Origin: Polynucleobacter sp. 80A-SIGWE
GTDB taxonomy: Bacteria > Pseudomonadota > Gammaproteobacteria > Burkholderiales > Burkholderiaceae
NCBI RefSeq assembly: GCF_018882295.1
Contig: NZ_JACVOR010000001.1
Location: 496,001 to 560,000, forward strand
DNA: 64,000 nt
Direction of reading: 5' to 3'
A program made the translations under genes and the position numbers. Shown here piece after piece: positions 2,344 through 3,891 of this stretch (the first letter of the stretch is position 1; each line of letters opens with the position of its first letter). The notes beneath the pieces are model-generated. The model searched no databases. It saw nothing but the letters and a program-made list of their open reading frames with translations, and was not told the origin of the DNA.

Positions 2344-3891
2344 CTATTTTTCAGGATAAAAAATTCTGACGCGATAGCCTGCAGCATTTTGTGGGAGGGA
2401 AATCGGTAATGCAGAAGAGAAAATTTCGCCAGAAGGAGCGCCTTGACGCAAAAAATCCTGATGCGACTCTTGCCAAGCAGTCGGCAACCATTCTGGCGGA
2501 GTAAATTGAATCGTTTTGATCTCGGATTCTTCTGCATCAGTGAGTGAAATTTCTAAATTTGGGAATAAAACGGGCATTGCAAGACGATTTTGTATTTCAA
2601 CTTGCAGTACCGATTGATTTAAAACGTTTTTAAGGCCCTCTCGCGCGTTTTCAGGCGAAAGAGTGACTGAAGTTATTTTCCAAGCCGCAAAATTGCTTAC
2701 AGAGCGATTTACGCACCCTAGTGCACGACACAATTGTTCATCTAACTTCTGTAAAAGAGAAAAACTACTTGTTGCAATCGCAGAAGAGCTGCCATCCACA
2801 CGTGTTGCTAGCGTTGGCAGTAGAGAATTTCTAGAAAGATGCTCGCCAAAAATAATGAGCAAGAGGAAAAAAAGACCAAGAAGGATTAACTTAGGACTTT
2901 TTTTTTGAGCCGGCACTGCAGTGTCTGTGTTTTTAACGGACAAACTCGTTTTATCGCTCTGCGCAGCTAGCATGCCGTGTAAACAGACCCAACCCTCACT
3001 TTCTTTCCAAACAGAGAGAGTTAGCCACTGGCTATAGGTTGCAATGACTTCCTCTGCTTGGCGAGCAAGAACACCTGAGAGAACAATTTTCCCCCCTGGA
3101 CGCATCTTATTTACCAGGGCAGGCGCTAAAACTTGTAGTGGGTTAGCCAAAATATTCGCCATCACGATGTCGTATTTGGTTTCCGCAGCAAGTTCTGGTG
3201 CATTTTCATTGGGCAGAACAAAGCGAATGGTCGTATTGTTGATTTCCGCATTGCTACGCGCTGCAACCATGGCTTGTGGATCGATATCGGTACCGACAAC
3301 TGGTTTGCATCCTAGTTTTGCAGCGGCAATAGCCAGAATTCCAGATCCACAGCCGTAATCGAGCAAGCTTTGATTTGAAAGTTGCGTATTTTGCTCAAGC
3401 CAAAGTAGGCAAAGATGTGTGGTTGGATGGCTACCAGTGCCAAATGCCAGACCTGGGTCTACCGCTAGGCAAATTGCATTCGGGTCAGTAGGCGCTTCAT
3501 GCCAGGAAGGTACTACCCAAATACGCTCACCAATTTGAATTGGGGCAAATTGACTTTGCGTTAAGCGAACCCAGTCTTGCTCTTCAACAATCTTTTCTTG
3601 CGGAGCTGGAAGATTGAACCCCACCTCTTTGAGGGATGCGAGGAGCTCAGGGATGAAGTTCGCCGCATCCGAATCATCAATCTCTGGATTAAAGAGTGCA
3701 GTTACTGAAGAGCGATCCCAAGCTTGAACTTCAGGTGAGAGTCCTGGCTCGCCATAAAGCGGGTTTTCATCGTAACCACCCGCAGCATCATCTTCAACGG
3801 TGACAGAGAGTGCACCCACTTCCAGCAATGCGTCACCCAAAGGCTCGGCAATTTCTGCGGGTACCGTGAAAACGAGTTCACGATAGGACAT
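2344..3891 (-). CDS. prmA: Fusion: ribosomal protein L11 methyltransferase (PrmA) + DUF3426-like membrane domain
   Basis: One 515-residue frame. Residues 1-307 are a full PrmA, which trimethylates ribosomal protein L11 using S-adenosylmethionine: GTGSHPTT at 151-158, the SAM-binding LLDYGCGSGILAIAAAKLG around 176-194, and MANILANPL around 244-252. After a short Lys-rich linker comes a transmembrane helix (about 334-349), then a C-terminal region (about 385-515) with the pattern of DUF3426 proteins. In related bacteria DUF3426 is a separate downstream gene starting with a CxxC zinc ribbon; no such ribbon is visible here. It follows accC with a short gap, the usual order. No stop or frameshift separates the halves. 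Confidence 0.85.
   Translation of the reverse strand: MSYRELVFTVPAEIAEPLGDALLEVGALSVTVEDDAAGGYDENPLYGEPGLSPEVQAWDRSSVTALFNPEIDDSDAANFIPELLASLKEVGFNLPAPQEKIVEEQDWVRLTQSQFAPIQIGERIWVVPSWHEAPTDPNAICLAVDPGLAFGTGSHPTTHLCLLWLEQNTQLSNQSLLDYGCGSGILAIAAAKLGCKPVVGTDIDPQAMVAARSNAEINNTTIRFVLPNENAPELAAETKYDIVMANILANPLQVLAPALVNKMRPGGKIVLSGVLARQAEEVIATYSQWLTLSVWKESEGWVCLHGMLAAQSDKTSLSVKNTDTAVPAQKKSPKLILLGLFFLLLIIFGEHLSRNSLLPTLATRVDGSSSAIATSSFSLLQKLDEQLCRALGCVNRSVSNFAAWKITSVTLSPENAREGLKNVLNQSVLQVEIQNRLAMPVLFPNLEISLTDAEESEIKTIQFTPPEWLPTAWQESHQDFLRQGAPSGEIFSSALPISLPQNAAGYRVRIFYPEK

Follow-up and report, generated by a model that had tools for sequence, protein, structure and literature searches.

To our knowledge, polymerase slippage has been described for few cellular genes, that is, genes of neither insertion sequences nor viruses. 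In Escherichia coli dnaX, a short product arises from -1 ribosomal frameshifting at the sequence A AAA AAG. The dnaX gene of Thermus thermophilus, which encodes tau and gamma, carries a run of nine adenines (A9) late in a long in-frame open reading frame, followed by nearby stops in both other frames, and slippage with about 50% short product has been measured for it, according to PMC1088944 and PMC5009743. In the tssM genes of Citrobacter rodentium and Yersinia pseudotuberculosis, PMC4256274 describes poly-A slippage that results in two length variants, the long form being the product of slippage in one species and the short form in the other. The Caulobacter protein ZitP consists of a Zn_ribbon_5 domain, a membrane helix and a DUF3426 domain; according to PMC5182063, its zinc ribbon promotes PopZ-dependent localisation, and pili require its periplasmic DUF3426 domain, which recruits CpaM.

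The locus described here is located in a window of 64,000 nucleotides, which is the whole stretch of DNA that was analysed, from Polynucleobacter sp. 80A-SIGWE (contig NZ_JACVOR010000001.1, positions 496,001 to 560,000). Positions 2344-3891 of this window form a single open frame of 515 codons plus stop on the minus strand; the plus strand of the same interval has many stops. The gene encodes a fusion of the ribosomal protein L11 methyltransferase PrmA with DUF3426. The uninterrupted order of PrmA, linker, membrane helix and DUF3426, which the original prediction had read from the letters, is borne out by the frame itself, by Pfam and TIGR00406, by AlphaFold and by relatives, the coding strand being minus. 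The PrmA domain (PF06325, residues 3-306, 2974..3885) is recognized with a whole-protein E value of 3.6e-85, and the NCBIfam equivalog TIGR00406 covers its full profile (1-288 of 288) with 232.9 bits at a cut-off of 183.15. The motifs DYGCGSG and NILANPL, which we take to be the catalytic motifs of PrmA, show no variation among 23 aligned sequences. Scoring above the PrmA family cut-offs, the protein is predicted to methylate L11. It resembles stand-alone PrmA in that the whole domain scores above these cut-offs with conserved motifs intact, and differs from it by the C-terminal linker, membrane helix and DUF3426 domain in the same frame.

The linker (residues 307-332, 2896..2973) has low model confidence and contains no cysteine, in agreement with the earlier claim that it is devoid of Cys pairs. 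In the AlphaFold model of the whole protein (mean pLDDT 66.5), residues 312-332 remain below 50, a helix is predicted for residues 333-361 and beta strands are found from 404 to 511; the tail modelled alone reaches a mean pLDDT of 83.8, which is better than within the whole-protein model. The putative membrane helix (2809..2895) is present in both models and has a hydrophobic sequence. It is followed by DUF3426 (PF11906, residues 365-509, 2365..2799; E 1.8e-12, 48 bits at a gathering cut-off of 27.7), which is predicted to fold into an Ig-like beta sandwich and is presumably periplasmic. For the tail model, the best match of a VIA search is a beta-galactosidase domain (Z 8.8, 92 residues, rmsd 2.3), with many further rows at Z 7-8, and the best Foldseek match is the WzmWzt transporter (E 8e-4); a search for sequence relatives of the tail among solved structures returned none at E 1. 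The Ig-like sandwich is a common arrangement that does not point to any function. Like ZitP, the fusion protein has one helix followed by a periplasmic DUF3426 domain; unlike ZitP, it has no N-terminal Zn_ribbon_5, the cytoplasmic place being taken by PrmA. A match to Zn_ribbon_5 (PF13719) was found neither in the fusion protein nor genome-wide at E 0.001. According to a profile search, DUF3426 occurs once in the source genome, and a separate DUF3426 gene elsewhere in the genome was looked for with the result that the sole DUF3426 is that of the fusion.

Polynucleobacter is a common freshwater genus that is not known to be harmful. A search of 151 Polynucleobacter genomes gave 150 matches, and 148 loci were collected, leaving out G009 (no match) as well as G141 and G092 (weak matches). 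The frame is open across the joint in 131 of these 148 loci, a number that includes G023 with a broken tail, the truncated G129 and the contig-cut G139 and G051. The others are 11 loci with separate genes, three that are split at A9, G017 with A8, and two fragments. Motifs could be parsed in 144 of the 148, the missing ones being the split genes of G003, G025 and G140 and the fragment of G089. Since the frame is open in so many loci and named Polynucleobacter isolates have full-length matches to the window protein, chance or assembly error is an unlikely source of the fusion frame. Outside the genus, a whole-protein search of 30 family genomes yielded matches in 29, none of which covered both domains.

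In the family genomes with a listed DUF3426 position, DUF3426 is encoded at most 2.3 kb from prmA in 11 out of 11. The prediction that relatives have a separate DUF3426 protein starting with CxxC pairs holds for the outgroup genera of the family, where the protein next to prmA begins with such pairs in 15 of 25 parsed loci and in 14 of 18 genera; in L090, the one outgroup locus tested by HMM, it comprises Zn_ribbon_5 and DUF3426. Within the genus, prmA ends at a normal stop in 11 members, which encode a membrane-DUF3426 protein of 142-161 amino acids in a gene of its own, starting at -36 to +70 bases relative to this stop. CxxC pairs are absent from all 11 of these proteins, and among the seven that were profile-tested all scored above the DUF3426 cut-off and none had a zinc ribbon. 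Therefore, the fusion and the loss of the ribbon could be separate events. The earlier proposal that a single deletion had removed both the prmA stop and the ribbon was right about the ancestral neighbour, and such a deletion, which would be ancient, is possible; it does not follow from the data, as these 11 congeners have the prmA stop and yet no ribbon.

The genus consists of three main clades, namely the fused clades P1 and P2 and the separate-gene clade, all of which are ribbon-less. In a quick PrmA tree, the branching among the 11 separate-gene species, P1 (14 rows) and P2 (122 rows) is an open fork; in this tree 70 of 150 inner branches are open, G093, a fragment, counts as split by default, and three of ten outgroup loci were lost. 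In a tree of accC, PrmA and pfkB with 38 rows (calculated without G140, and with accC, PrmA and pfkB missing in 1, 1 and 5 rows, respectively), P1 joins the separate-gene clade with a support of 84/78. AU tests rejected neither a single fused clade of P1 and P2 (p 0.374) nor a union of P2 with the separate-gene clade (p 0.377), and one fusion, two fusions, or one fusion with re-splitting therefore all stand. It is possible that the ribbon was lost first and that fusion then took place once or twice, or that one ancestral deletion was followed by re-splitting in the 11 species. If single, the fusion event is not local and dates back at least as far as the fused clades.

The joint of the fusion is marked by an A9 run (2898..2906 on the minus strand, T9 on the plus strand), which is read as CAA AAA AAA AGT for Q329 K330 K331 S332 and is the proposed slippery site. 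The original prediction did not mention this run, the main feature of the gene. Exactly nine A's are found just before the membrane helix in 110 of the 131 fused genes and ten in one further gene. A run of at least nine A's is thus present in 111 of 131, compared to 21.9 expected if codons for these peptides are redrawn according to the codon usage of the genes; as the species are related, these counts do not represent independent samples. Linkers differ between genes in both length and sequence, with A9 kept just 5' of the helix codons. The run occurs in all three reading phases with differing residues (QKKS, QKKT, VKKN, LKKK): most genes have CAA AAA AAA A.. (QKK), another clade has GTA AAA AAA AAC (VKKN) or CTA AAA AAA AAG, and G016 and G001 have AAA AAA AAA. 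Isolated A9 runs are rare, with seven on both strands of the 2.0-Mb source genome, two of them inside the window. Across 73 related loci, neither accC and pfkB (131 copies, 153 kb) nor the remaining parts of the fused gene (72 copies, 100 kb) hold an A run of at least eight, as opposed to 65 A9 runs in 72 linkers.

Stops in the shifted frames accompany the run. In the window gene they lie two and three codons past it. The frame that is entered by one additional A or by a -1 ribosomal shift ends at a TAA at 2891..2893 (minus strand), giving a product of about 333 amino acids with the end ...AQKKKS, and the frame entered by loss of one A ends at a TAA at 2886..2888 (minus strand) with the product end ...AQKKVLS. 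Compared to a synonymous redraw, the first kind of stop is strongly enriched, being present within three codons in 94 of 111 genes against an expected 32%, and the second kind only mildly (76 of 111 against 55%). Both shifted frames stop within seven codons in 95 of 111 genes, where 20 genes would be expected; at other positions of the same genes this applies to 13.5%. In 99 of 111 genes, neither shifted product extends beyond the first eight codons of the hydrophobic stretch. In the second codon past the run, the third base creates the +A stop. It is a T in 91% of the 96 main-clade genes and changes 8 times in 29 codon changes, while the residue at this codon changes 23 times; in nearby codons excluding the run, the third base is altered in 0.41 to 0.82 of codon changes, and in the codon before the run in 0.24, all of these tree counts being based on the quick PrmA tree. 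In G147 and G070, two closely related main-clade species in which the run has decayed to A7, the close stop is also gone and lies 18 codons away. With a run of at least nine A's and close stops in both other frames, the window gene has the sequence features of the T. thermophilus dnaX type.

These features are best explained by slippage on A9 that yields both free PrmA and membrane-tethered PrmA-DUF3426, with RNA polymerase as the slipping machine, a reading that we regard as fairly probable. The prmA gene and a downstream gene for a one-helix membrane DUF3426 protein would have been joined early in the genus, once or twice. RNA polymerase would then slip on A9 and produce mixed mRNAs: those with nine A's would be translated into the PrmA-helix-DUF3426 protein of 515 residues, tethered to the inner membrane, and those with one A more or fewer would reach an early stop and encode a soluble, roughly 333-residue PrmA that ends in a short basic tail. 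Slippage would thereby give back the two products of the separate genes in an adjustable ratio. The membrane part may be needed in a smaller amount than PrmA, and slippage would restore the ratio that was lost with the stop. In the tethered form, DUF3426 could perhaps recruit periplasmic partners in a ZitP-like manner, with PrmA as the cytoplasmic half. We infer slippage itself, the choice of the polymerase over the ribosome and the role of the tethered form from sequence. The earlier suggestion that the fusion tethers L11 methylation to the membrane probably describes half of the situation, as A9 and the stops in both frames imply free PrmA as well.

The resemblance to T. thermophilus dnaX comprises the sense-strand A9, its place late in a long in-frame open reading frame and the close stops in both other frames. 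In contrast to the slippage measured there, that of the fusion gene is predicted from sequence; moreover, the choice in the fusion gene would be between a soluble and a membrane-tethered enzyme, and its run is located at a gene-fusion joint. The dnaX gene of the source genome has no A run of at least six.

In the main alternative, two products are likewise made and, as for E. coli dnaX, it is the ribosome that slips: -1 frameshifting would take place at A AAA AAA or A AAA AAG, decoded by a sole tRNA-Lys(UUU). With that gene, the fusion genes share slip-prone lysine codons, a close stop leading to a short product and a heptamer A AAA AAR. An in-frame A AAA AAA is indeed contained in A9 in every phase, in the window as CA[A AAA AAA]A, the strongly enriched stops are those of the -1 frame (94 of 111 within three codons), two relatives with A7 read A AAA AAG, and one tRNA-Lys(UUU) was found among the 30 of 37 tRNA loci examined. 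Unlike E. coli dnaX, however, the fusion genes have nine A's and are devoid of an upstream Shine-Dalgarno sequence and of a consistent stem-loop: a Shine-Dalgarno-like sequence 4-17 nt upstream was detected in 2 of 111 genes against a background of 7.8%, and downstream folding gave a mean z of -0.28 over 25 genes, with single genes down to -3.2 and no consistent hairpin. Because these two stimulators were not found, the polymerase is favoured over the ribosome. Polymerase slippage is independent of the reading phase and of ribosomal stimulators. Furthermore, the length is held at nine though seven would suffice for the ribosome, and in both genes with A AAA AAG the -1 stop is 18 codons off. 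Ribosomal slipping is therefore considered unlikely.

Somewhat less likely still is the explanation that only the tethered fusion is made and that the run arises as a by-product from a basic QKK patch conserved before the helix, in line with the positive-inside rule. Q329, K330 and K331 show no variation among the 23 aligned sequences, AAA is the commoner Lys codon in the window (601 versus 489), and AAAAAA is the commonest codon pair for KK in accC and pfkB (24 of 44). Against a by-product stands the behaviour of the third bases: those of the linker Q, K and K codons changed 0, 0 and 2 times on the tree in 106 QKK-type genes, whereas seven conserved Gln control sites of the PrmA domain show 9-21 third-base changes each and the sole conserved Lys control site found shows 7, with the reservation that these counts rest on the quick PrmA tree and that the QKK set was picked by residues. 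Judged by these counts, the synonymous bases within the run are frozen. A9 also occurs with VKKN and LKKK in other phases, and the shifted-frame stops are conserved, both of which argue against a QKK by-product. As a separate observation, the second base before A9 (offset -1) changes only 5 times and is a T in 89% of the 96 main-clade genes, resulting in the sequence TC-A9; this T is perhaps part of the slippage context.

Natural out-of-frame alleles are found in the genus. In G005, G041 and G090, the frame break lies exactly within A9. The prmA frame reads CTC AAA AAA AAA CTC and terminates with the fourth codon past the run, and the DUF3426 frame corresponds to the -1 frame through the same A9. 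In these three species the DUF3426 frame is intact with dN/dS values of 0.11-0.20 at dS 0.45-2.3, the higher dS values being near saturation; for this reason the out-of-frame DUF3426 is probably expressed, either via slippage or via a weak start inside the gene. In their sister G006, the corresponding site has A10 and the gene is fused in frame. Whether the partition between free and inner-membrane PrmA is set by the slip rate of the polymerase on A9, with the default flipped in the three out-of-frame species, where free PrmA would be the default product and the fusion would result from slippage, appears evenly balanced on sequence grounds. As in tssM, an A run would set the length of a membrane-associated protein, to be compared with the in-frame and out-of-frame A9 alleles; unlike the case of tssM, for which two genes are treated in PMC4256274, 111 fused genes are concerned, and the proteins are unrelated. 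In G017 (locus L077), which has A8, PrmA ends with AQKKVLS and the tail is decayed with the break exactly in the A run; this genome (1.55 Mb) presumably resembles that of the symbiont P. necessarius. In G023 (L078), the membrane-DUF3426 tail is broken and PrmA is kept. The tail thus seems dispensable in G017 and G023. In 18 fused pairs, the dN/dS of the tail is 0.05-0.28 versus 0.01-0.12 for PrmA, and purifying selection on the tail is accordingly weaker. That the run is a contingency site at which replication slippage toggles membrane anchoring between cells is very improbable, although the A8 allele of G017 and the shifted-phase A9 alleles of G005, G041 and G090 would fit it, as A9 is short for contingency loci, out-of-frame alleles are found at just two places on the PrmA tree, and the length is nine in 110 of 111 in-frame long-run genes (with one genome per species and in-frame genes selected) where a switching site should vary.

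Polymerase slippage on A9, the preferred reading, is not required throughout the genus. The run is missing in 20 of 131 fused genes (e.g. L271, L272, L263 and L261), including whole clades such as G063 and its relatives and the group of G037, G050, G062 and G124. Slippage is therefore not obligatory for a working fusion, and in fused genes without A9 free PrmA, if needed, must arise otherwise, e.g. by proteolysis. On the PrmA tree, the label A9 undergoes at least ten changes, among which repeated gain and loss are not distinguishable. The T-C-A9 context is common to the window, L079, L080, L081 and the split genes, which hints at one origin with losses. The probability assigned to slippage is independent of the clade order.

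A separate DUF3426 protein could also be produced from an internal start, which is possible above all in the split species. Some ATG, GTG or TTG is present in 102 of 111 genes between the region behind the GWVCL motif and 15 codons past the run; in 44 of 111 there is a Shine-Dalgarno-like sequence near one of them, and 17 of 20 starts inspected are a TTG inside the GWVCL codons. A conserved start signal for a separate DUF3426 protein was not found in the 111 genes.

This putative case of slippage is testable, since it comprises over 100 related genes with frozen synonymous sites, conserved hidden stops and runs in three phases. The locus also illustrates how cells can tolerate a fusion, as slippage would return the separate enzyme, and it links L11 methylation to DUF3426. 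If true, bacterial transcriptional slippage would have a cellular use that is conserved very widely, and the modification of ribosomes would be linked to a protein of the envelope. Among the open-licence PMC articles listed for these subjects, titles and the starts of abstracts contain nothing on slippage in prmA or on a PrmA-DUF3426 fusion, and no paper in this collection was found to name both Polynucleobacter and the enzyme by its full name; the main text of PMC3711429 makes no mention of prmA, L11 or Polynucleobacter.

Two other A9 runs of the source genome deserve a brief description. In L331 (from 1475), a TonB-type receptor gene carries A9 at the start of its signal peptide (LGKKKLLF). 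Among the 21 homologues examined, this run is present in this genome alone, and it is possibly a species-specific site of slippage or phase variation; its restriction to one of 21 homologues is counted in favour of the slippage reading of the conserved A9 at the fusion joint. In the window, a Lys/Ala-rich histone-H1-like gene (803-1123) has one of the seven isolated A9 runs of the genome in its last codons (1111-1119), directly before the stop (CAAAAAAAAAGTAA), where slippage would alter the C-terminus.
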